From Pseudooceanicola atlanticus (lineage in GTDB: Bacteria; Pseudomonadota; Alphaproteobacteria; Rhodobacterales; Rhodobacteraceae): 64,000 bases of DNA. Made by a program: the position numbers and the translations under genes. The stretch spans positions 1 through 64,000 of the forward strand of contig NZ_AQQX01000005.1 of assembly GCF_000768315.1 (NCBI RefSeq), in the 5' to 3' direction. Numbering within the stretch: the stretch's first letter is position 1; every line of letters starts with the position of its first letter. This document shows positions 1 to 21,079 of this stretch, in pieces. Under the pieces are notes generated by a model. That model did no database searches and had not been told where the DNA came from. It worked only from the letters and a program-made list of their open reading frames with translations.

Positions 1-1
1 C

Positions 2-184
2 AACCTGCAGACTCTCATTATGAACGAGGGACCAACAGGGGGCAGGTCACCGTCTTCACCAATCGGCGGTAGCCAAGCAGGCTATGGTCGTATTCTCTGC
101 GGAAGCGTGGCTATCGAGTTCCCTCTGGGGATTACCGAGAACGAGCTTGTGAAGCTCGTACAAGTCGCGGGGCAACTCCAATGA
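2..184 (+). CDS. tnpA: IS66 family TnpA (OrfA), C-terminal fragment cut by window edge
   Basis: An open frame runs in from the window start and encodes about 60 residues ending in LVQVAGQLQ. Its stop codon overlaps the start of tnpB in an ATGA arrangement, as usual for translationally coupled IS66 orfA/orfB. The IEFPLGITENELVKLVQ stretch is like the tail of IS66 OrfA proteins, whose helix-turn-helix domain would lie upstream and is not visible. OrfA is an accessory protein required for IS66 transposition. The call rests mainly on position and coupling to tnpB; the fragment alone is too short for a firm family assignment. Confidence 0.7.
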   Translation, partial: NLQTLIMNEGPTGGRSPSSPIGGSQAGYGRILCGSVAIEFPLGITENELVKLVQVAGQLQ

Positions 185-531
185 TTGCGCCGTCGAACAC
201 CTACAAGATCTACCTCGCCACGACACCTGTCGATTTCCGAAAGGGCATGGATGGTCTGGCAAACTATGTACTGAGCAATTTCGACCTCGACCCGCTGTCC
301 GGGGCATTTTTCGTTTTCAGATCGAAAGGCCGCGACAAGATTAAGGTCTTGATGTGGGACGGTACTGGCCTTGTGCTGATCTACAAACGCATTGAGGGCG
401 CGGGCTTCGTCTGGCCAAAATTAACGGAGGCAAACATTTCCATGACCAAGGCCCAGTTCGAAGCCTTGTTCGAAGGCCTCGACTGGAGGCGTGTCGAGTC
501 TGCGAACTACCATCGCCCAAAGGTTGCCTAG
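181..531 (+). CDS. tnpB: IS66 family accessory protein TnpB (OrfB)
   Basis: This 116-residue protein has the usual TnpB length. It shows the family's conserved pattern: an N-terminal stretch near YLATTPVDFRKGMDGL, then FVFRSKGRDKIKVLMWDGTGLVLIYKRIEGAGFVWP. TnpB is needed together with TnpA and TnpC for IS66 transposition, but its biochemical role is unclear. It overlaps tnpA by 4 nt. Unlike standard IS66 elements, where tnpC follows directly, about 390 bp separate its stop from the likely tnpC start. The gene is full length with no frameshift. Confidence 0.93.
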   Translation: MIAPSNTYKIYLATTPVDFRKGMDGLANYVLSNFDLDPLSGAFFVFRSKGRDKIKVLMWDGTGLVLIYKRIEGAGFVWPKLTEANISMTKAQFEALFEGLDWRRVESANYHRPKVA

Positions 532-923
532 CTTCACTGAATACAGCGACGCGCTTGATGCTTTCTGATTGGAGTAGGTATCGAAGGTAGCGGTGGTCCC
601 AAAGCGCGTTGAGACCTGCTGAGTAGAATAGCGAATCGGTGGGGTTGTCTCGTTCTCACTGTCGCATCTTGGCTGCATTCCAATATAGCCCCCACAAAAA
701 TCGCCCAAATTTTAATCATAAATTGTGACGTGAAATCATCATGTTTCGCGAGATCACAGGAATTCCCCTATCGAAATCGCTAATTGCAAAATTCTCTCTC
801 TGGCTCCTCTTTCAAGGTTGCAAGACCTCCGCATACGCCGCATCCAAATCATACCGAAACGCAGGGAAGCTCACGCATCCGCCTTTGTTAAAGAAAGGCG
901 CAGCGTCTCGCTGCGTTCGGAAG
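532..923. other. 392-bp spacer between tnpB and tnpC
   Basis: No convincing gene is visible. The tnpC frame is open from an ATG at 741, but the residues between 741 and 924 do not look like TnpC N-terminal sequence. A coding region that starts at 924 gives a normal-looking OrfC. IS66 elements normally have only a few bases here, so this is either an insertion into the element or an unusual subgroup architecture. An AT-rich stretch around 700-730 could hold a promoter for tnpC. Confidence 0.5.
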
Positions 924-2594
924 ATGAAAGACTCAATCGACAGCCTAGCGGCTGACATCTTGGCCTCCGAATGCGTAAGCGCTCGCCACTTTGCTGATCG
1001 AGCGGAAGCGCTGTGGCGGGACGGTCAAAATGAGATCAGAGGCCTCCGTACTGAGCTAGAAAAGGCTAAGACGCGCAGCAAGATGAAGGATAGGAAAATT
1101 AGCGAGCTTGAAAGACAGATCGCTAACCTAAAGAAAATCGTCTTTGGCGCAAAAGCAGACCGCAATCCTAATAAGGATCAACTGCAAAAAGGCGATGGGC
1201 CATCTGACCAGTCAGTCCGGGGGCATACAGCCAATAGTGCAACGCCAAACTCTGGGAACGATCTGCATGGTCATAGGCAGACACCAAGACGTCTGGCCCA
1301 GCGCAATCGAAACGGTCGCGGAAAACGCGAGTTTACAAAATACCTAGAACGGTTCGAAATTTACATGGGTACGACAGACAAAAAATGTCCCTGTGGATGT
1401 GGTGGGTCGATACGGGGATATGACATCAACGAAACGTTGGAAATGGTCCCAGCACGTTATTATGTGGCCGTTCGCAAATACCCAAAATATCGATGCCGTG
1501 CGGCAGACAAGGTAGTGGGAACACCTTTCATACCACGTATCTTCCCTCAAACTACGATGAGCAACGGATTCTTAGCGAATGTGATTTTCATGCGTTTCGG
1601 TGCCCAACTGCCGTGGTATCGGCAGGAGGGGCTACTGAAGGCAAGCGGCATCGACCTCAATCGCAGCACCTTGATGACTTGGTCGAACCGGATAGCCATA
1701 CAAGCTCTTCAGCCCGTCTACGAATTGCTATTGCGGGAACTGCTTCATAACAGTGCGCGCCTCTTCATGGATGAAACTACCATTCCGATGCTCACGCCGG
1801 GCAAGGGGCGAACCATCACAAGCCACCTTATCGCAATTCACCGCGATGATCGTTCCTTTGGTGGCAATCTGCCCCCTATCGTCGCGTATGTACCCAGCAA
1901 GACCAGAGCGATGTACAAAATTCATCAACTTCTCAGCGGTTGCACTGCAATCGTGCAGACGGATGCTTACGCGGGCTACGGACAATTGGGGCGAGAAGGG
2001 ACGGATGTTGAAGGAATCGTCAACCCGAAATGCTGGGCACACACGCGAAGGCATTTCACTGATGAGTATAAGCGAAACAAGACAGAAGACGCCAGAATAG
2101 TGATCGAGTTGATCGCAGAGCTTTATGCTGAGGAACTGAAGATAAGGGGCAAGCCGCCCTTTGTTCGGAAGGCTCACCGCCAGAAATACAGCGCACCCGT
2201 AATTGCTCGATTAAAGGCATTCCTTGAAGAGTGTTCAGGTCGTCACCTGACAAAAGGCGGCATGGCGAAGGCCATCAGCTATGCGCAAAAGCTCTGGTCA
2301 GATTTGGTTCTCTTCGTCGATGACGGTCGTATTGATCTTGACACCAACCCAGTGGAGCGGATGTTCAAGCCGTCGATTTTGCTGCGCAAGAACGCGCTGT
2401 TCATGGGCAGCGACGAGGGTGCGGAGGCGTGGGGGATTTTGTCCTCCATCGTTGAGACCTGCAAACTCAATGGGGTGAATGTCGAACTGTACCTGAATTG
2501 GGTGCTGGACCAGATTGCAGCCAAGCTGCCTCGCAGCGAGTACGACAAGCTGCTGCCCTGGAACGCTCCGCAGGAGTTCTTGGTTGGCCGATAA
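924..2594 (+). CDS. tnpC: IS66 family DDE transposase TnpC (OrfC)
   Basis: Starting at ATG 924 gives 556 residues, somewhat longer than the common 510-530. The N-terminus is a coiled-coil helical region (ELEKAKTRSKMKDRKISELERQ), followed by the KIVFGAKADR motif typical of IS66 OrfC. A zinc-binding CPCGCGG segment comes next, then the catalytic core with acidic residues in RLFMDETTIPML, VQTDAYAGYG and DTNPVERMFKP (DDE triad). The last forms the terminal E-containing motif. The C-terminus (NWVLDQIAAKLP...YDKLLPWN) is also family-typical. The protein cuts and joins element ends. All motifs are intact, so the transposase looks functional. An upstream in-frame ATG at 741 was not chosen because the added 61 residues lack family character. 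Confidence 0.92.
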   Translation: MKDSIDSLAADILASECVSARHFADRAEALWRDGQNEIRGLRTELEKAKTRSKMKDRKISELERQIANLKKIVFGAKADRNPNKDQLQKGDGPSDQSVRGHTANSATPNSGNDLHGHRQTPRRLAQRNRNGRGKREFTKYLERFEIYMGTTDKKCPCGCGGSIRGYDINETLEMVPARYYVAVRKYPKYRCRAADKVVGTPFIPRIFPQTTMSNGFLANVIFMRFGAQLPWYRQEGLLKASGIDLNRSTLMTWSNRIAIQALQPVYELLLRELLHNSARLFMDETTIPMLTPGKGRTITSHLIAIHRDDRSFGGNLPPIVAYVPSKTRAMYKIHQLLSGCTAIVQTDAYAGYGQLGREGTDVEGIVNPKCWAHTRRHFTDEYKRNKTEDARIVIELIAELYAEELKIRGKPPFVRKAHRQKYSAPVIARLKAFLEECSGRHLTKGGMAKAISYAQKLWSDLVLFVDDGRIDLDTNPVERMFKPSILLRKNALFMGSDEGAEAWGILSSIVETCKLNGVNVELYLNWVLDQIAAKLPRSEYDKLLPWNAPQEFLVGR

Positions 2595-2707
2595 AACGCC
2601 ACAGGCCGAAATGGGTGGCAAGATTATCCGTTGTATCCACGATCTTTTTGTTGCCCGCTGGGGTCACACGTTAGATCATGATGGCTACGTTGAAACCTTC
2701 AAAGGTT

Positions 2708-2726
2708 GTGGCGGTTGAACCGCCAC
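2708..2726. repeat. 19-bp near-palindrome after tnpC
   Basis: Arms GTGGCGGTT and AACCGCCAC are perfectly complementary (9 bp) around a single central G. No T-run follows, so it is not a standard intrinsic terminator. It lies 114 bp past tnpC and 67 bp before the GTG start of the next gene. It could be an operator for that gene or the hairpin at the end of the tnpC transcript. Confidence 0.5.
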
Positions 2727-2792
2727 CTCTAACAGCGTGCCTACTATGGATACGCGAATGGCGCAGGAATAGTCGGTAAGGAGTTTACATCA

Positions 2793-4895
2793 GTGCGATC
2801 CGAGGAAGAGTGTTTTCAGGAGCTTATAGAACTGTGCCGAAGTCCGGGCTTTGCACACGCAATCGCGATGCTCTGTTTCCGAGACAATTGGATTGGACTC
2901 AAAGACCAGATGACCGGCAAACTGATTGCGGATATGAAATCACCGCAACGTCTAGTGCGAACTGAGATTGCATCGTTAATCGGCGGGCTGCTTGGAGGCC
3001 CCGGCTCCACTGAACTCCCTGATCAAGCAGTGATCGCGCAGTATCTAGAGCGAACGGAGCGCCTCCTTGAAGAAATTCATCAATGCATGGTCAAAGATGC
3101 TTTCTCCGCACGGAAGGCGGGTACCTCTCCCCTTTCAACTGGAGAGGCGATCAGAGAAGCGGCCTTTTACGCCACCGAAAGCGCTTACGCATTTCAGTAC
3201 AATGCTTTTTCGGAAATGCGTTACCAGCAGGATAAGCAATGGCTTGCCGACAACGTAGGGTTTACCCCCGAAGATGCCAAAATCATCGCTGATGCGATTG
3301 TTGGCATCCAGTCTCAAAAGGCGCAGGATCACCTTGAAAGTCTTAGGCATATTGACCAGAAGTTTTGGACGATGCTTCCAGCATTCGAACTAGAGCAAGG
3401 AGCGCTAGTTACTGCTTCAGGCTTGTCAGAAAAAACTGTCGAGAATTTCTTCGATGCTTTCACTTGTGATGTCAGTTTCGATAATGCGACTTTTCAATCC
3501 GTTACTGACTTCAATATTACCTCAGCGCGCCCCATCGTCCTCTTGGATGGACGACACTATCTGTTTCAATACGTCAGCCTCACTGAAGCAATTTATGAGT
3601 GCCCTGCTCATTGGATGTACCAAGACGCATCATACAGGGCGGCGGCATCTAAAAACAAAGGCAATTTCACAGAAGAAATGACCTTTCAGTTTCTAAAAAG
3701 AATATTCGGTGACGATCACGTTTTCCAGAACTTGGATATTTTTGATGGTGCGAATAAGGTTGGTGAAATAGATGTATATGTTTCCTTTGGTGAGATCGGG
3801 ATCATCTGTCAATGCAAGTCACAAAAGCTGACAGCCGCTTCGCGGAGCGGAAATTTGGTGAAAATTCAAAAAGATTTCCAACTTGCAATTCAAGAAGCTT
3901 ATGGCCAGTGCCGAAATTGTTTTGATGGACTTCAAGTTCAAAACGTAGTTGTAAGGGACGCGGCCGGAAATGTGGTCGACCTGAAAAGGCCAGAGAGAGT
4001 GTTCCCGATTACGATTATTTCGGATCACTATCCGGCATTGAGTGTTCAAGTTCGACAATTCCTGAAGATCAATTCTGCCGAAGGATTTGAAAACCCGCTC
4101 TGCGTCGACCTTTTTACTCTAGACGTTCTCTCGGAACTGGTTCCCTCTCCAATCCGGGTCTTAGCATACTTAGAGCGCCGTTCTCTATACTACGACTGGA
4201 TAATGACGGCCAACGAATTGGCCGTGCTCGGTCATTTCCTAAAAGTAAACCTTTGGCTCGAAGGTGAATATGACATCTTAAATTTGGACGACAGTTTAGC
4301 AAGCGATATTGACGCCGCAATGATTGTGCGGCGGGAAGGCCTTCCGGGGCAAGATACTCCGGAAGGACTTCTGACGCGCTTTAAGGACAAATTTGTCGTT
4401 CGTGTGATCGATGATGTTGATCGCAATCCAAATGCACTCTGTGTTGAATTAGGGCTATCTCTTCTTGAGATGGGAGAGGACGGTATCAACCAAATTGAGG
4501 GGTTGATCTCAAGAATGGCGGCAAGTGGAAAAGGCGATGTCACTCTGCCTATGGAAAATCGCTCGTCCGGCCTAACTATACATTGCAATTCTGATCCCCA
4601 GTTCATTGCAGAGCCTGCGCTGCGTAAGCATATGTTACGTCGCAAGTATTTTCAGAAGGCGGACAAATGGTTGGGGCTTAAGGTTGATCCTTTGACCAAG
4701 CAAGTGCATTTCGGCGCGTATGTTCGGCAGAAGCATGCATTTGACTATGAGCTAGAACAAATTATGGCTGGAGCGCCGCCATTGGTCAAAACCGAGGATG
4801 TCTTGCGGGGGGGAGGGCGACGAAAAGTTGGACGAAACGAGAAGTGTCCGTGCGGGAGCGGCAAAAAGTACAAGCGTTGCTGTGGTAATGGCTAA
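2793..4895 (+). CDS. Large orphan protein: NERD/PD-(D/E)XK-like nuclease core plus C-terminal SEC-C motif
   Basis: The 700-residue product has no name I can assign. The GTG start is supported by AAGGAG at 2778-2783. Residues 1-300 are mostly helical with no recognised motif. Residues about 300-380 resemble NERD/PD-(D/E)XK folds: NKGNFTEEMTFQFLKRIF, then GEIDVYVSFGEIGIICQCKSQK, giving E, D327 and Q340-C-K342 in the expected order, with Gln in place of the more common Glu. The end, GRNEKCPCGSGKKYKRCCG, is a textbook SEC-C zinc motif. No signal peptide or membrane helix is seen. The gene stands alone, next to an IS66 element and near a tRNA gene, and is AT-richer than its surroundings. A DNA-targeting accessory or defence role is an inference only. 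Confidence 0.6.
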   Translation: MRSEEECFQELIELCRSPGFAHAIAMLCFRDNWIGLKDQMTGKLIADMKSPQRLVRTEIASLIGGLLGGPGSTELPDQAVIAQYLERTERLLEEIHQCMVKDAFSARKAGTSPLSTGEAIREAAFYATESAYAFQYNAFSEMRYQQDKQWLADNVGFTPEDAKIIADAIVGIQSQKAQDHLESLRHIDQKFWTMLPAFELEQGALVTASGLSEKTVENFFDAFTCDVSFDNATFQSVTDFNITSARPIVLLDGRHYLFQYVSLTEAIYECPAHWMYQDASYRAAASKNKGNFTEEMTFQFLKRIFGDDHVFQNLDIFDGANKVGEIDVYVSFGEIGIICQCKSQKLTAASRSGNLVKIQKDFQLAIQEAYGQCRNCFDGLQVQNVVVRDAAGNVVDLKRPERVFPITIISDHYPALSVQVRQFLKINSAEGFENPLCVDLFTLDVLSELVPSPIRVLAYLERRSLYYDWIMTANELAVLGHFLKVNLWLEGEYDILNLDDSLASDIDAAMIVRREGLPGQDTPEGLLTRFKDKFVVRVIDDVDRNPNALCVELGLSLLEMGEDGINQIEGLISRMAASGKGDVTLPMENRSSGLTIHCNSDPQFIAEPALRKHMLRRKYFQKADKWLGLKVDPLTKQVHFGAYVRQKHAFDYELEQIMAGAPPLVKTEDVLRGGGRRKVGRNEKCPCGSGKKYKRCCGNG

Positions 4896-5263
4896 GCTCG
4901 AGACATTGGTAAGATGGCAACGGTTGTCGCGCTTTTCACCCTGAGCTCAGGGCGGCGCCACGACCGTGTCGGTTGTATTTAAAGGCTGAATGCAGCCACT
5001 ACGCCGCGCGTCGCATGAACGGTCCGCTGAATATTGAATGCGTGAAAATCTATGCCCCGTATTGGCGCTTAGCGCCAATATACAAGGGGGTCAGCGTCGC
5101 TAAAAGACCTCAAATCGGGGGGCAGATGCAACGCTTACCTCCGAATGAGGAGACCGACGATGCGGAAGAGCTGACCTGCTGAAAGGTGATCGCAGACGAA
5201 ATGGTCTATGGCTACAAGTAGCTGCAAGAAGCTGAAGCGAAACCAATTCGTTAGCCGAAGAAA
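4896..5263. other. Gene-poor stretch between the orphan nuclease gene and tRNA-Phe
   Basis: No credible coding region is seen. A 69-codon frame at 4973-5182 shows no domain character. The stretch holds three notable strings: a perfect 14-bp palindrome CCCTGAGCTCAGGG at 4939-4952, a 21-bp palindrome at 5060-5080, and a CGCTTAC string at 5132-5138 that looks like an IS66 right terminus. It probably represents the edge of the acquired segment next to the tRNA. Confidence 0.5.
5060..5080. repeat. 21-bp perfect palindrome with 1-nt centre
   Basis: Arms TATTGGCGCT (5060-5069) and AGCGCCAATA (5071-5080) are exact reverse complements around a single T. The short centre argues for a dimeric protein binding site rather than an RNA hairpin. 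No long T-run follows. It sits about 165 bp after the orphan nuclease gene. Confidence 0.55.
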
Positions 5264-5338
5264 TGGTGCCCGGGGGCGGAATCGAACCACCGACACGAGG
5301 ATTTTCAATCCACTGCTCTACCCCTGAGCTACCCGGGC
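5264..5338 (-). tRNA. tRNA-Phe (GAA anticodon)
   Basis: Reading the minus strand, the gene starts GCCCGGGTAGCTCAG and ends CCCGGGC-A-CCA, so the CCA tail is encoded (75 nt with it). The 7-bp acceptor stem is perfect. The D-arm (GCTCAGGGGTAGAGC), the anticodon loop TTGAAAA with anticodon GAA, and the T-loop GGTTCGATTCC are all present. The 3' end faces the AT-rich IS66/nuclease block, the usual geometry when an island has integrated at a tRNA 3' end. Confidence 0.96.
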
Positions 5339-5375
5339 ACGGGGAAGCCGGATGATCCCAGCTTCGGGTTGCGGC

Positions 5376-5404
5376 GTTCTATGCGCGGGAGGGGAGGTTG
5401 TCCA
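5376..5404 (-). promoter_or_regulatory. Probable sigma-70 promoter of tRNA-Phe
   Basis: On the minus strand, a -35 hexamer TGGACA (5404-5399) and a -10 hexamer TAGAAC (5381-5376) are separated by 17 bp. Transcription would begin about 30 nt before the mature tRNA 5' end at 5338. Hexamers and spacing fit a housekeeping promoter; this is a read by eye. Confidence 0.55.
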
Positions 5405-5811
5405 GAGAGATTTTTTGAATTTTTGGAACGTGGTGGTCGGAGCCCTTCGGGTAACGCCGAAGGCTGTGCTGCATGCCAAGACATCTGCTATTTAATGGCC
5501 AGCCAAGGGACGATTGTGAACCGGGTTGGAACCTTTGCCGACAAGGATGACATCCACACAAGAGCGTGCAAAGCGCTTGCCGGAACGGTGCTTACAACAA
5601 TGTTATGCGGAAGCGGTTCGATGAGGCGGTTTCCGCGAAAATGCCGCGCTGATGATGAGGCAGCGACAGAAAGCTCACGTTGCGTAAGCCTGAAAAGTGG
5701 CGGAGCTCGAAGGGCTTGGCAGCACCTGCACCGGCCGAGAGGCGCACCGGGAATCGCGGAAGATGGTGCCGACGGGCTGCAAGAGCCCCTTCCAGGGTGC
5801 GACAAAATTCT
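5405..5811. other. Intergenic stretch before ctaD, no supported gene
   Basis: Several frames are open on both strands, including 148 codons from 5369 on the plus strand. None shows domain character, a good ribosome binding site or natural composition, and they overlap each other. A GC-rich imperfect hairpin (AGCCCTTCGG / CCGAAGGCT) lies near 5442-5466. Nothing else is recognised. Confidence 0.4.
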
Positions 5812-5825
5812 TTGATCTGCGTCAA
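5812..5825 (+). promoter_or_regulatory. FNR/FnrL-type box upstream of ctaD
   Basis: The sequence TTGAT-CTGC-GTCAA matches the FNR-family pattern TTGAY-N4-RTCAA. It lies upstream of the predicted ctaD promoter, centred about 60 bp before the likely transcription start. In Rhodobacterales, FnrL and related Crp/Fnr regulators tie terminal oxidase genes to oxygen supply. Direct binding is inferred, not shown. Confidence 0.55.
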
Positions 5826-5844
5826 TTGCGGGCATTGCCCGCCC

Positions 5845-5872
5845 CTGACAATCATTCTAGAACGCGAATAAT
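5845..5872 (+). promoter_or_regulatory. Probable ctaD promoter
   Basis: A -35 hexamer CTGACA (5845-5850) and a -10 hexamer AATAAT (5867-5872) are separated by 16 bp. Initiation would fall near 5879, leaving a leader of about 44 nt before ATG 5923. A short hairpin, GCGGGC-ATT-GCCCGC, lies just before the -35 element. Confidence 0.5.
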
Positions 5873-5922
5873 TCGGGATCCGGCTCGTCCGGGACCAGTG
5901 TATCACCAGCAGGAGGCGAGAC

Positions 5923-7593
5923 ATGGCCGACGCAGCCGTTCATGGCCACGGACATGAAGACAACCGCGGGTTCTTTACCCGGTGGTTCATGTCGACCAAC
6001 CACAAGGATATCGGGATTCTGTATCTGATCGTTGCGGCGATCACGGGTCTGATCTCGGTCCTTTTCACCGTTTACATGCGCATGGAGCTTATGCATCCGG
6101 GCGTCCAGTACATGTGTCTGGAAGGCGCGCGTTTCATCGCCTCCGATGCGACCTGTACCCCGAACGGGCATCTTTGGAACGTGATGATCACCTATCACGG
6201 CGTCCTGATGATGTTCTTCGTGGTCATTCCGGCCCTTTTCGGCGGCTTCGGCAACTACTTCATGCCGCTGCAGATCGGTGCGCCGGACATGGCGTTCCCG
6301 CGGATGAACAACCTCAGCTTCTGGATGTACTGCGCCGGTGTCGGCCTGGGTGTCGCCTCGCTGCTGGCGCCGGGGGGTAACGGACAGCTCGGCTCCGGTG
6401 TGGGCTGGGTTCTCTACCCGCCGCTTTCGACGACCGAAGGCGGGTATTCCATGGACCTGGCGATCTTCGCCGTCCACGTCTCGGGTGCCTCTTCGATCCT
6501 GGGCGCGATCAACATGATCACGACCTTCCTGAACATGCGCGCGCCGGGCATGACGCTCTTCAAGGTGCCGCTGTTCTCGTGGTCGATCTTCGTGACCGCA
6601 TGGCTCATCCTGCTGTCGCTGCCCGTTCTGGCCGGCGCCATCACGATGCTGCTGACCGACCGTAACTTCGGGACGACCTTCTTCGACCCGTCGGGCGGCG
6701 GCGACCCGATCCTGTACCAGCACATCCTGTGGTTCTTCGGCCACCCGGAAGTGTACATCATCATCCTGCCCGGCTTCGGAATCATCAGCCACGTGATCGC
6801 CACGTTCTCGCGCAAGCCGATCTTCGGCTACCTGCCGATGGTCCTGGCCATCATCGCGATCGGTGTTCTGGGCTTCGTCGTGTGGGCGCACCACATGTAC
6901 ACGGTGGGCATGTCCCTGTCGCAGCAGAGCTACTTCATGCTGGCGACCATGGTCATCGCGGTTCCGACGGGCGTGAAGGTGTTCAGCTGGATCGCAACGA
7001 TGTGGGGCGGCTCGGTCGAGTTCAAGACGCCGATGCTCTGGGCCTTCGGGTTCCTGTTCCTCTTCACCGTGGGCGGCGTGACCGGCGTGGTCCTGTCCCA
7101 GGCCGCCGTGGACCGTGCCTATCACGACACCTACTACGTGGTCGCGCACTTCCACTACGTGATGTCGCTGGGGGCCGTCTTCGCGATTTTCGCGGGTATC
7201 TACTTCTACTTCGGCAAGATGACCGGTCGTCAGTACCCCGAGACGCTGGGCAAGGTTCACTTCTGGATGATGTTCATCGGTGCCAACCTGACCTTCTTCC
7301 CGCAGCACTTCCTGGGCCGCCAAGGCATGCCGCGCCGCTACATCGACTATCCGGAGGCATTTGCCACCTGGAACTATTGGTCGTCGCTCGGTGCGTTCCT
7401 GTCCTTCGCGTCCTTCCTTCTGTTCTTCGGGATCGTGATCTACGCCCTGACGCGCGGCGCTAAGGTTACCGAGAACAACTACTGGAACGAATATGCCGAC
7501 ACGCTGGAGTGGACCCTGCCCTCTCCGCCGCCGGAGCATACGTTCGAAATCCTCCCCAAACAGGAGGATTGGGACAAAGGGCACGCCCATTGA
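5923..7593 (+). CDS. ctaD: Cytochrome c oxidase subunit I, aa3 type
   Basis: The 556-residue membrane protein catalyses oxygen reduction to water with proton pumping in the inner membrane. All key residues are visible: H92 and H411 for heme a, H409 for heme a3, the CuB ligands H274, H323 and H324, the cross-linked Y278, E276 of the D-channel with D122 at its mouth, and K352 of the K-channel. These are offset by ten from the Rhodobacter sphaeroides numbering. About twelve hydrophobic helices are present. AGGAGG at 5911-5916 supports the start. The gene stands apart from other cta genes, as is usual in Rhodobacterales, and is followed by an intrinsic terminator. An FNR-type box lies upstream. 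Confidence 0.98.
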
Positions 7594-8462: not shown

Positions 8463-9800
8463 TTGAAGTTCGATCTGGCGGAAGGCGATGGCAATTTCAC
8501 CGACGGGGCCTGGACCGATGTCTTGGCCGCGGTGGACCGCACCTATGCTGACCTGATCGCCCATCAGCAGAAGCTGGAAGAACAAAGCGAGCAACTGCAT
8601 GAGTTGCGCCGCTTCATCGGCTCCGTCATGGGGTCCGTGAGCGAGATCATGGCAATCGTCGATCGCGATGGCCTGATCGAAGAGGTCAGCGCCTCCCTCA
8701 GCGACACCACCCGGTCCGAACCGGCAGCCTTGATCGGCAGTGACCTGGCGCACTTGTTCGTGCCCGCCGGTGCCAAGGCCATCACCGAAGCTTTGACGGC
8801 CCTGCGCCTTTCCCGCAGTGCCGCACATTTCGAGGCGGACGTGATGACCGCAGATGGCCCTGCCCCGTTCGAGATTACGCTATCCGCCCGAGTGAATGAC
8901 AGCGGTCGTCTGATCGGCGCCGTCCTCGTCGGTCGCCCGCTGGGCGAACTTCGCCAGGCCTATTCGGAACTGGAGCAGTCTCACCAGCGCCTGCAGGAGG
9001 CGCAGACGCAGTTGGTGCGTAACGAAAAGCTGGCCTCGCTGGGCCGTCTATTGGCGGGCGTCGCGCATGAGTTGAACAATCCGATCAGCTTTGTCTACGC
9101 CAACACCCACGCGCTGGAGCGCTATGTCACCCGGTTCGAGACCTATTTCGAACGCGTACAGGATGGCGCGGAACGCGAAGAACTCGTCGCCCTGCGATCA
9201 GAGCTGAAGCTGGAACGCAACCTGCGCAACCTGCGGGATGCGATCCAGGGCGCCAGCGAAGGCGCTGAACGGGTGCGCGACATCGTTGCAGACCTGCGCC
9301 GATTGTCGGCCGATGGCACCGCGGCCGCGGATGCGTTCGACCTTGTCGATACGGCCCGGGTCGCGGCGCATTGGGTGGAACGCGGATCGAAAAGCGGCGT
9401 CACGACACGCTTCACCGGGCTGGACAACCTGACCATTCGCGGCACGCCCGGCCACGTCCAGCAGATCGTGATGAACCTCGTGCAGAACGCCATGGACGCG
9501 GTGCGCGATCTTGATGACCCCGTGGTCGGCATCCATGTCGACCGCGACGCAGACCGCGCCATCCTGACCGTCACGGACAATGGCCCAGGCGTGGCCGCAG
9601 AACATCGCGATGCGATCTTTGACCCGTTCTTCACCACCAAGCCGGTCGGACAGGGCACCGGGCTGGGCCTGTCGATCAGCCACAAGATCGCAGAGGAACA
9701 TGGCGGCAGTCTGTCGCTGGGGCCCGGCCCAGGTGGCGCTTTTCAACTGGCTCTGCCACTATCGACCGACATGCCCCAACCCCAACGGGAGACGGAATGA
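8463..9800 (+). CDS. hupT: Soluble sensor histidine kinase HupT of the H2-sensing system
   Basis: The 445-residue kinase lacks membrane helices. Residues about 50-160 form a PAS-like domain. The dimerisation/phosphoacceptor region reads LASLGRLLAGVAHELNNP with H202 as acceptor. Catalytic motifs follow: N-box QIVMNLVQNAMDAV, G1 VTDNGPGV and G2 GQGTGLGLSIS. The start is TTG 8463 with an AGGGAGGA site just upstream; the nearby GTG at 8458 is followed by a stop. In Rhodobacter capsulatus, HupT phosphorylates HupR without H2 and interacts with the HupUV sensor. The gene overlaps hupU by 4 nt and opens the hydrogenase locus. Confidence 0.95.
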   Translation: MKFDLAEGDGNFTDGAWTDVLAAVDRTYADLIAHQQKLEEQSEQLHELRRFIGSVMGSVSEIMAIVDRDGLIEEVSASLSDTTRSEPAALIGSDLAHLFVPAGAKAITEALTALRLSRSAAHFEADVMTADGPAPFEITLSARVNDSGRLIGAVLVGRPLGELRQAYSELEQSHQRLQEAQTQLVRNEKLASLGRLLAGVAHELNNPISFVYANTHALERYVTRFETYFERVQDGAEREELVALRSELKLERNLRNLRDAIQGASEGAERVRDIVADLRRLSADGTAAADAFDLVDTARVAAHWVERGSKSGVTTRFTGLDNLTIRGTPGHVQQIVMNLVQNAMDAVRDLDDPVVGIHVDRDADRAILTVTDNGPGVAAEHRDAIFDPFFTTKPVGQGTGLGLSISHKIAEEHGGSLSLGPGPGGAFQLALPLSTDMPQPQRETE

Positions 9801-10789
9801 ATCTTCTCTGGCTGCAATCGGCCGGATGCGGTGGATGCACGATGTCCCTGCTCTGCGCCGAGGATCCGAATGTCTTCGACCTGCTCAAGGATGCCGGGAT
9901 CAACGTGCTGTGGCATCCCTCCGTTTCGATTGAAACCGGCGCAGAGGTGCGCCGCCTGCTGGAGCGGATCGAGAGCGGAGAAATACCGCTCGACCTGCTG
10001 TGCATCGAAGGCTCGATCGTCACGGGGCCGAAAGGGACTGGCCGTTACCACATGCTGGCCGGCACCGGGCGCCCGATGCTGGACTGGGTGCGCAAGCTTG
10101 CCCCGCTCGCCCGCGACGTACTGGCTGTCGGCACCTGCGCGGCTTATGGCGGGGTAACCTCGGCCGGGGGCAATCCTGCAGGCGCGGTCGGGCTGGCCTA
10201 TGACGGAAAGCTGGCGGGCGGCGCGCTGGACAGCGGCTTTCGTGCGAAATCCGGCCGTCCGGTGATAAATATCGCCGGCTGCCCGACCCATCCAGACTGG
10301 GTCACCGAAACGCTTCTGCTGCTGGCGGATGATCGGTTGGAGACCGCAGACCTCGACCCGCTGGGTCGGCCCCGCTTCTATGCCGATCACCTCGTCCACC
10401 ATGCCTGCCCGAAGAACGAATATTACGAATACAAGGCCAGCGCGCGCGAGCTGTCGGAGCTGGGCTGCATGATGGAGCACCTTGGCTGTGTCGGGACGCA
10501 GGCCCACGGCGATTGCAACATCCGCCCCTGGAACGGCAGCGGGTCCTGCACGCGCGGCGGCTATCCCTGCATCAACTGCACCGCCCCGGAATTCGAGGAA
10601 CCACGCCACCCCTTCACCGAAACCCCGACCATCGCAGGCATCCCCGTCGGCCTGCCATCGGACATGCCCAAGGCCTGGTTCATGGCGCTGGCCTCGCTGT
10701 CCAAGGCGGCTACGCCGAAACGGATCGAGGCCAACGCCCATTCCGACCGGATCGAGGTTCCGCCCGGCGCCGGGAAAGGGCAGAAATGA
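9797..10789 (+). CDS. hupU: Regulatory (H2-sensing) [NiFe]-hydrogenase small subunit HupU
   Basis: The 330-residue protein has iron-sulfur ligand motifs of hydrogenase small subunits: AGCGGCTMS at the proximal cluster, GTCAAYGGV, AGCPTHP, and distal/medial ligands in HHACPKNEYYE, GCMMEHLGCVG and GGYPCINC. There is no Tat signal peptide, so it stays in the cytoplasm, as expected of sensor hydrogenases. The proximal motif has the standard CGGC form, unlike the catalytic subunit HupS in the same locus. With HupV it detects H2 and passes the signal to HupT. It overlaps both hupT and hupV by ATGA junctions. Confidence 0.96.
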   Translation: MNLLWLQSAGCGGCTMSLLCAEDPNVFDLLKDAGINVLWHPSVSIETGAEVRRLLERIESGEIPLDLLCIEGSIVTGPKGTGRYHMLAGTGRPMLDWVRKLAPLARDVLAVGTCAAYGGVTSAGGNPAGAVGLAYDGKLAGGALDSGFRAKSGRPVINIAGCPTHPDWVTETLLLLADDRLETADLDPLGRPRFYADHLVHHACPKNEYYEYKASARELSELGCMMEHLGCVGTQAHGDCNIRPWNGSGSCTRGGYPCINCTAPEFEEPRHPFTETPTIAGIPVGLPSDMPKAWFMALASLSKAATPKRIEANAHSDRIEVPPGAGKGQK

Positions 10790-12216
10790 CCGAAAGACAG
10801 CTGCTGGTCGGCCCCTTCAACCGGGTCGAGGGCGATCTGGAGATCAAGTTGGATATCCGTGACGGGCAGGTCGCGGCGGCCCATGTGAATTCGCCGCTCT
10901 TCCGGGGCTTCGAGATGATGTTGCAGGGCAAGGACCCTCGCGATGCCTTGACCCTGACGCCACGCATCTGCGGGATCTGTTCGGTCAGCCAATCCGCCGC
11001 CGCCGCGCTGGCACTGGCTGACGCCGCGGGCACACAGATGCCCGAACAGGGCGCGCTGGCGGCCGCCATCCTGCACGGGGTCGAAAACCTGGCCGACCAC
11101 GTCACTCATTTCAACCTGTTCTTCATGCCCGATTTCGCGCGCCCTGCCTATGCGGGCCGGGCCTGGCACGATCAGGCCGTGGCGCGCTTCACCGCGCTCG
11201 ACGGCAGTGCCGCGCGGCAAACGGCGGAGGCGCGGTCGCAACTTTTCCACATCGCGGGCCTGCTGGGCGGCAAGTGGCCCCATACCCTGGCGATCCAGCC
11301 CGGTGGCGTGACCCGCACCCCCGATGCACGCATGCGCATCCGTATCCGCGCCACGCTACGGGGGTTCCGCCGCTACCTGGAAGAAACGCTCTTTGGCACA
11401 GAGCTGGAGAGTTTCCTGCCTCTCGCGACACCCGACGCGCTGGAGGCCTGGGACACCGGGGATGCTGCGTTGTTCCTGCGCATCGCACGGGATCTTGGCC
11501 TGCACCAGAGCGGCATCGGCCCGCGACGCTACCTGTCTTACGGCGCCTATCCGGTCGCCGGAACGCGCGCGATGGCTGCGGGTGTCTGGGAAGGCGGCTC
11601 CGTGACCCCGTTCAACCCCGCAGACATCGTCGAGGACCTCAGCCATGCCTGGATGCTGGGCGAGGACGCACATCCGCAATCCGGCCAGACCGTCCCGGAC
11701 GAGGACATGCGCGACCCGGGCTACAGCTGGTGCAAGGCCCCGCGCCTTGGCGGCCGGATCGCAGAGGTCGGCGCCCTCGCCCGACAGATCGTCGATGGCC
11801 ACCCTCTCGCGCGGGCCTTGGCAGACGAAGGCAGCGTGCGCGCCCGGATCGTGGGCCGCTTGCTGGAAATCGCACGCACGCAGGTTCTGCTGGAACAATG
11901 GGCCGACGCTCTGGACCCTTCAGCGCGCTTCATGACGCCGTCGGAAACCATCAAGACCGGCACCGGCGTCGGGTTGGTCGAAGCTGCGCGCGGATCACTT
12001 GGCCACTGGCTACGGGTCGAAGGCGGACGGATCGCCGGCTACCAGATCATCGCTCCTACGACATGGAATTTCTCGCCGCGCGACCGCGACGGAAATCCCG
12101 GCCCGTTGGAGGCCGCCTTGGTCGGCGCTGTCGCTGGCCCCGAGGAAGACACCCCGCTCAGCGTCCAGCACATCGTGCGCAGCTTTGATCCCTGCATGGT
12201 CTGCACGGTGCATTGA
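10786..12216 (+). CDS. hupV: Regulatory (H2-sensing) [NiFe]-hydrogenase large subunit HupV
   Basis: The 476-residue large subunit starts at ATG 10786, overlapping the hupU stop. The frame is open further upstream, but that part lies inside hupU. Nickel ligands are C62 and C65 (RICGIC) and the C-terminal pair C470 and C473 in DPCMVC. The protein ends TVH at residue 476, with no cleavable tail, so HupD-type maturation is not needed. This is the hallmark of regulatory (group 2b) hydrogenases. It forms the H2 receptor with HupU that controls HupT. The stop overlaps the hypF start region. Confidence 0.96.
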   Translation: MTERQLLVGPFNRVEGDLEIKLDIRDGQVAAAHVNSPLFRGFEMMLQGKDPRDALTLTPRICGICSVSQSAAAALALADAAGTQMPEQGALAAAILHGVENLADHVTHFNLFFMPDFARPAYAGRAWHDQAVARFTALDGSAARQTAEARSQLFHIAGLLGGKWPHTLAIQPGGVTRTPDARMRIRIRATLRGFRRYLEETLFGTELESFLPLATPDALEAWDTGDAALFLRIARDLGLHQSGIGPRRYLSYGAYPVAGTRAMAAGVWEGGSVTPFNPADIVEDLSHAWMLGEDAHPQSGQTVPDEDMRDPGYSWCKAPRLGGRIAEVGALARQIVDGHPLARALADEGSVRARIVGRLLEIARTQVLLEQWADALDPSARFMTPSETIKTGTGVGLVEAARGSLGHWLRVEGGRIAGYQIIAPTTWNFSPRDRDGNPGPLEAALVGAVAGPEEDTPLSVQHIVRSFDPCMVCTVH

Positions 12217-20263: not shown

Positions 20264-21079
20264 ATGCAGAATTTCCACATGCCGCCGACGGGATATGGCC
20301 CCGGTTCCCAGACCGAAGAAGGCGGGGAAGAGCTCGAGTACATGTCCATGCCGCAGGACATGCGCACCTATTCCGCGCGTCTGCCCGATATCGACGCGGC
20401 CCCGGCGCCCGCGCTGGATTTCCTGCTGGCGCTTGCTGATGCCTGTGACCGTGTCGCGGCCGGCGGCACGCCCGAGCGGTTCGACCTGTCCCAATTGGGG
20501 GGCGAAGCCCGCAAGATCGTCGCCGACACCCTGCAGGAAGGCGAAGTGGCGATGAAGATCCGCGGCATTCCCGCCGTGCGCGTGCAGGAATCGGTCTTCG
20601 CCGGGGTCTGGAGCCTGTCCGCCTCCGGTCTCGACGTGGTCGAGGTGGGCCAGGTGCCAGCAGACGCCATTGCCCGCGCGTTCGAGCCCTTCCGCCCGGC
20701 CACCGCTGATCGACCCGGCCCCGGCGTGGTTAACGCCCCCGCCCTGCTAAGCGAGTTGCAGGACCATTCGGCCAACCCGGATATCGACCTTCACGTCATC
20801 AACCTGTCGTTGCTGCCGCATACGGAAGAAGACCTGGCCTGGCTCGAGGATCGTCTGGGCGAAGGCTCCGTCGACATCCTCTCGCGCGGGTATGGCAATT
20901 GCCGGATCCGCGCCACCGCCCTGCCGCGCACCTGGCACGTACAGTTCTACAACTCCACCGATCAGCTGATCCTGGACACCTACGAGGTCACGACGATGCC
21001 CGAGGTGGCCCTGGCCGCCCACGAGGATCTGACCGACAGCGGCGCCCGCCTGCGCGAAGTCGTGGAGGCGATCCGATGA
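20264..21079 (+). CDS. hupH: Hydrogenase assembly protein HupH (HyaF/HoxQ family)
   Basis: The 271-residue product matches the HupH/HyaF pattern, including MPPTGYGPGSQ, a GEVAMKI core (LQEGEVAMKIRGIPAVRVQESVFAGVW) and the C-terminal IRATALPRTWHVQFYNSTDQLILDTYEV. No membrane helix or cysteine cluster is seen. It takes part in maturing the small subunit's iron-sulfur clusters together with HupG and HupJ. The stop overlaps hupJ in an ATGA junction. Confidence 0.92.
   Translation: MQNFHMPPTGYGPGSQTEEGGEELEYMSMPQDMRTYSARLPDIDAAPAPALDFLLALADACDRVAAGGTPERFDLSQLGGEARKIVADTLQEGEVAMKIRGIPAVRVQESVFAGVWSLSASGLDVVEVGQVPADAIARAFEPFRPATADRPGPGVVNAPALLSELQDHSANPDIDLHVINLSLLPHTEEDLAWLEDRLGEGSVDILSRGYGNCRIRATALPRTWHVQFYNSTDQLILDTYEVTTMPEVALAAHEDLTDSGARLREVVEAIR

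Follow-up and report, generated by a model that had tools for sequence, protein, structure and literature searches.

A candidate single-gene anti-phage nuclease with a predicted PD-(D/E)XK core and a SEC-C tail, encoded on an island of Pseudooceanicola atlanticus

Results

Gene organization and domain architecture

The stretch of DNA analyzed here (the window) comprises 64,000 nucleotides of Pseudooceanicola atlanticus, positions 1 to 64,000 of contig NZ_AQQX01000005.1. Its positions 2793-4895 hold an open reading frame (ORF) for a 700-residue protein that is a candidate stand-alone anti-phage nuclease. The gene and the parts of its product are as follows.

2793-4895, plus strand: ORF of the NERD-like nuclease with a SEC-C tail, 700 amino acids, GTG start
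2778-2783, plus strand: AAGGAG, a likely ribosome-binding site read from the sequence, nine bases 5' of the GTG
2793-3647, plus strand: N-terminal part, largely helical (residues ~1-285), which falls within the stretch aligned with Upx
3654-4172, plus strand: predicted PD-(D/E)XK nuclease core, about residues 288-460, with a sub-threshold NERD match
3672-3818, plus strand: putative catalytic constellation E294 ... E325-x-D327 ... Q340-x-K342, from conservation in alignments
4173-4832, plus strand: C-terminal region of helical and alpha/beta character (residues ~461-680), modelled together with the tail
4833-4889, plus strand: SEC-C zinc-binding motif, residues 681-699 (Pfam PF02810)

The reading frame agrees with that of the initial annotation, and its start is supported by the upstream AAGGAG and by homologues that share the same first residue with the window protein. 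At 47.8% GC, the gene is AT-rich relative to its genome (64.3% over window positions 5340-64000), although the AT-richness once ascribed to it does not hold in absolute terms. The C terminus scores 34.4 bits against the Pfam SEC-C model (cut-off 20.4). In an alignment of 121 rows (119 relatives plus the query and its own record, so that the window protein is present twice), the cysteines C685 and C696 are retained in 118 rows, C687 in 117, and C697 in 108. By score and cysteine pattern, the predicted SEC-C end is as clean as had been proposed. The match to Pfam NERD (PF08378), at residues 289-345, covers 57 of the 700 residues and reaches 14.7 bits against a gathering cut-off of 22.1, which would not place the protein in NERD. 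DUF6298 is matched weakly (E 0.17; Pfam matches considered at E<=10), and the N-terminal region (residues ~1-285) has no Pfam match above the cut-off. Matches to NCBIfam and PADLOC models are confined to residues 625-699, the SEC-C end, and none of those to NCBIfam reaches its cut-off; excepted are three weak PADLOC hits (E at least 0.0049), whose models are of nucleases or unassigned.

Predicted fold and conservation of the nuclease core

An AlphaFold2 model of the protein, with a predicted local distance difference test (pLDDT) score of 87, adopts a PD-(D/E)XK nuclease fold. Structure comparison matches the model to BspD6I, FokI, Can2, McrBC, and SduA, and the acidic residues and the (D/E/Q)xK motif are present in the core of the window protein. 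The model therefore contains the PD-(D/E)XK core on which the initial annotation had staked its nuclease assignment, and on this predicted structure the protein would belong to that fold. Each of the residues E294, E325, D327, Q340, and K342 is identical in all 121 aligned rows, a strict conservation that argues that catalysis matters. Of the earlier designation "NERD/PD-(D/E)XK," it is the PD-(D/E)XK part, with its invariant motif, that stands, whereas NERD stays below the Pfam cut-off.

The best solved-structure match of the model is Upx (PDB 9wuf), which aligns with model residues 3-552 and hence with both the N-terminal and the nuclease regions. Upx has 1212 residues compared with 700 in the window protein, and the two are 9% identical over the aligned part. 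A profile search at E<=10 returned no Upx rows, the presence of 9wuf in that sequence file being unconfirmed. In a published account, Upx is described as an anti-phage system under nucleic acid degradation and is attributed to Gao et al. 2020 (PMC10855318). The region of residues ~461-680, modelled with the tail, yielded no convincing match in a fold search.

Family size and distribution

The protein is not an orphan, as had first been supposed: a protein search with it returned 212 proteins at E<=1e-3, its own record included, among 7996 scored candidates. Among the 120 proteins listed, query coverage is 98% or more for 116, identities start at 37%, and 32 carry a precomputed PF08378 annotation by hand count. 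Relatives of full length are spread over several phyla and are carried by plasmids and prophages. Scanning genome contigs confirmed 175 relatives, the best 80 of which form the locus set. On a tree of 79 relatives and the query, nine phyla require 11 changes, where the minimum is 8 and the mean after shuffling is 12.0; values as low as that observed arose in 6 of 200 shuffles. The phyla are thus strongly mixed with slight clustering, which fits horizontal spread without proving it. In 69 of the 74 loci with enough flanking sequence, the GC content of the gene is below that of its surroundings; the mean difference is 8.6 points.

The family is widespread yet sparsely distributed. Within the genus, the full gene is found in one of 22 genomes searched, its own, and five others match at the SEC-C end only. 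Within the bacterial family, it is present in two of 295 genomes, its own and G303 (31% identity), and 113 other genomes match solely at residues 630-699. In a sample of the phylum, five of 398 genomes, its own included, carry it at 1e-20. The gene is accessory.

Neighboring genes of relatives

Within 3.5 kb of the family gene at 80 loci, 375 genes of at least 150 amino acids were collected, with ORFs called by length only. PADLOC models were run at 1e-10 on 368 of them in sets of 127, 127, and 114, seven being left out. The three sets matched 149, 46, and 97 PADLOC families compared with 14 for 120 control genes, tallies that count families rather than genes; the control genes came from 25 of 31 stretches of the same genomes, sampled at a set position in each genome and not randomly. 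Among the first 25 families shown for each set are Drt4, type I restriction-modification subunits, AbiEi, LmuB, QatA-D, SoFic, and PifA, together with Old, AriA, GajB, SduA, mad3/mad8, and a Cas12f-like model, whereas the control matched mad3, RtcR-like, 2TM effector, PycTM, DolB, DpdF, and PDC-M37B models. Phage integrase accounts for 5 of 127 genes in the first neighbor set. It is not among the first 25 rows of the control and thus matches at most 1 of 120 genes there, since the last rows shown hold one gene each.

On plasmids, the gene adjoins a type I restriction system in Shewanella, AbiEii lies near it in Sphingomonas, and integrases stand directly beside it in some cases; the other plasmid surroundings viewed contain no obvious defense genes. 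On an Agrobacterium pAt plasmid (L092:13800-16899), the homologue has genes annotated as a His-Xaa-Ser radical-SAM system a few genes away. The homologues accordingly occupy accessory, mobile, and defense contexts and not conserved housekeeping ones, an outcome that sustains the prediction made from the window.

Clustering of ORFs around 92 loci revealed no general partner gene. The commonest neighbor families, by eye a LysR-type regulator and an integrase, occur in 7 loci each at scattered positions. One family directly adjoins the gene, in 3 of 92 loci; this neighbor is a gene of about 400 amino acids on the opposite strand, directly after the family gene (L009:12162-13427 and two further loci). 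The single-gene character first proposed fits this, and without a general partner the gene appears to work by itself or together with host factors.

Relatives in phage satellites and prophages

A nucleotide search, which may miss diverged copies, found relatives in 9 of 5426 E. coli genomes. In strains GD33, whose homologue is WP_228172888.1, and A20, the family gene is the sole annotated gene between psu and the integrase gene of a P4-like satellite at ssrA. The psu-int interval is proposed as a reservoir of antiviral systems, with validated systems reported, in one study (PMC9122126), and the tmRNA locus is named among E. coli defense hotspots in another (PMC10121019). A P4-like remnant also occurs on a Salmonella IncFIB plasmid (CP053577, L091:11279-15298), with a piece of psu, an interrupted copy of the gene, and a split integrase gene; the PLSDB gene table, which is incomplete, lists no genes there.

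Eight loci came from IMG/VR, and 20 neighbor genes in five of them were scanned with PHROGs. In contig L088, a gpA-like replication gene stands on one side of the family gene and a portal gene on the other, and the surroundings include terminase, scaffold, and integrase genes. As read from its gene order, this element is P2-like, and the family gene is the sole sizeable gene in the gpA-gpQ slot, one unverified 81-residue ORF overlapping its start. The study that proposed the psu-int reservoir describes the gpA-gpQ region as a second hotspot (PMC9122126). A terminase gene lies directly beside the family gene in L083 and one gene away in L085.

The copies in seven E. coli genomes are of a second type, which in the two examined belongs to an element integrated at guaA. 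In strain EcPF16 (L195:12914-17774), and in the same order in L196, members of 716 and 778 residues stand in tandem, followed by two DUF262 genes. The tandem members have diverged from each other, and both carry SEC-C; both genes are found in the seven genomes at identities of at least 99%.

The home locus

The surroundings of the gene in the window include the following features.

181-531 and 741-2594, plus strand: IS66-type genes of 116 and 617 amino acids (ORF calls), adjoining the nuclease gene
5264-5338, minus strand: tRNA-Phe (GAA), the 3' end of which is the island boundary

The name IS66 for the genes at 181-2594, which agrees with the element first placed there, is given from their sequences rather than from a family search. 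The contig starts at window base 1, and the left end of the island is thus lost. In four relatives (G005, G012, G013, and G017), tRNA-Phe adjoins a cytochrome oxidase gene, presumably ctaD, as it does in the window. When window positions 1-6500 are compared with the stretches of these four genomes, homology starts at 5261-5264, the 3' end of the tRNA, and there are no matches to the left of this point. In G001 (C1, ~2081000-2111000; L186, L187), the 3' end of tRNA-Phe recurs as a 57-base exact copy ~30 kb from the complete tRNA, which suggests that this relative has an island integrated at the site too. The homology stop at the tRNA end and the G001 copy indicate that the block of IS66 and nuclease genes is an insertion, and tRNA-Phe seems to be an insertion site used by islands in this genus. 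The accessory block at a tRNA 3' end is thus borne out, together with the presence of the gene in one of 22 genomes. On another contig, G017 has two exact 46-base repeats of the tRNA-Phe 3' end ~15 kb apart (C42:5584-5629 and 20971-21016), possibly the ends of a further element.

Discussion

A candidate stand-alone anti-phage nuclease

The sequence, the conservation of the catalytic residues, the predicted fold, the lack of a general partner, the mobility of the gene, and the placement of relatives in hotspots together point to a stand-alone anti-phage nuclease, carried by mobile elements, whose PD-(D/E)XK domain would be held back until triggered and would then cut DNA (probability about 0.7). 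Because relatives occupy the very positions at which phages and phage satellites hold their anti-virus genes, the family probably provides one-gene phage defense. For the relatives, location in defense islands or hotspots is evident at the P4 psu-int interval, at the P2 A-Q slot, and from the PADLOC matches of neighbors against the control; for the window's own copy, the evidence of location is the island at the tRNA. The earlier description as a single-gene nucleic-acid-targeting system fits the candidate nuclease, as judged from sequence and model. Weighing against the placement in phage-related hotspots, none of 50,697 phage records holds a relative.

In the proposed mechanism, the predicted metal-dependent PD-(D/E)XK nuclease would probably be kept inactive until it meets a phage-made molecule; alternatively, the protein may discriminate phage DNA directly. 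The activated protein would cut phage DNA, host DNA, or both, and phage multiplication would be blocked. Sensing and docking would fall to the helical N terminus and to the C-terminal region that ends in the SEC-C zinc knuckle. SEC-C in SecA is a zinc-bound docking motif, and docking of the SEC-C tail here to protein or nucleic acid is a guess.

Comparison with named systems and rival explanations

In its mode of action the protein would resemble the known single-protein defense nucleases, and it is not assigned here to Upx, Shedu, or NERD. SduA of Shedu is not among the PADLOC matches of the window protein at E<=10; it is matched by one neighbor gene of a relative. For Can2, Card1, and Cdn1, no CARF part is matched in the window protein by Pfam, PADLOC, or NCBIfam, and PADLOC matched the nuclease part only of one such model (E 0.011).

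The family may already belong to a described defense family found in newer lists, such as a newer DefenseFinder list, or in supplementary tables. The many systems curated in the tables of the hotspot paper and the structural resemblance to Upx favor this explanation, which is nonetheless unlikely: PADLOC 2.0.0, NCBIfam 20.0, and Pfam contain no model covering the window protein beyond its motifs (the SEC-C and the weak nuclease matches), PADLOC has none covering five further SEC-C or NERD members tested, and the family was not found described in the open-licence literature, a scope to which newer lists, closed papers, and supplements are external.

A role in the service of the mobile element, namely competition with plasmids and other elements or DNA processing or replication rather than phage defense, is somewhat less likely again. 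Relatives occur at E<=1e-5 on 35 plasmid records, 22 of them predicted conjugative, and integrase, type IV secretion system, and relaxase genes are among the neighbors; 19 of the 35 records, however, are from Agrobacterium, and of these at least 18 are near-duplicates in the list. Against this reading, the gene appears as optional cargo of unrelated elements (a P4-like satellite, a P2-like prophage, the guaA element, plasmids, and islands), the clustering of 92 loci shows no fixed link to genes of element replication or transfer, and action against plasmids would itself be a form of defense.

A housekeeping SEC-C/YecA-type protein related to secretion or proteostasis, as names such as "YecA family protein" and "preprotein translocase subunit SecA" on relatives and the occurrence of SEC-C in SecA and YchJ would have it, is highly improbable given the conserved nuclease motif, the patchy distribution with the gene missing from most relatives searched, and a family survey in which 113 of 115 matching genomes match only residues 630-699, mostly in frames of about SecA length. 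SecA, YchJ, and YecA share the C-terminal zinc motif with the window protein, and no match was seen outside its C-terminal end (residues ~625-699); names drawn from the SEC-C motif mislead.

With the family viewed as stand-alone anti-phage nucleases, a gene whose annotation reads hypothetical, YecA-like, or SecA-like becomes a strong and directly testable anti-phage candidate. Because natural copies in E. coli include ones that stand alone in the cargo slot of a P4-like satellite, one clone and a standard phage panel would suffice for a laboratory test. If the reading is true, the defense catalogue would gain a single-protein nuclease family with Upx as a solved structural reference, and the misnaming of relatives as secretion proteins would be corrected.

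A possible wider superfamily

Plasmid matches led to a Streptomyces protein of 784 amino acids, a haloarchaeal protein, and an Acuticoccus protein. In the alignment, the Streptomyces protein shows no SEC-C. Used as a query, it retrieved 230 proteins at E<=1e-3 from 7995 scored candidates; of the 120 that were listed, many bear the name "preprotein translocase subunit SecA." An alignment of nine members across the branches has ten invariant columns, E325, D327, and K342 among them. The actinobacterial branch without SEC-C (including L161:867-3221) has the nuclease motif and often bears the SecA name, which, by its sequence, looks wrong. Tentatively, and at somewhat less than even odds for the whole of this joint claim, these proteins would form a new and widespread superfamily of one-protein anti-phage nucleases in bacteria and archaea, with or without SEC-C and doubled in E. 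coli, that shares an ancestor with Upx and whose DNA cleavage is switched on when the N-terminal region or the zinc knuckle binds a ligand made by the phage.

Other genes of the window

Beyond the tRNA, window positions 8463-12216 encode a histidine-kinase-like protein followed by genes resembling the small and large subunits of a [NiFe]-hydrogenase, a set that we take to resemble the H2-sensing HupT/HupUV.
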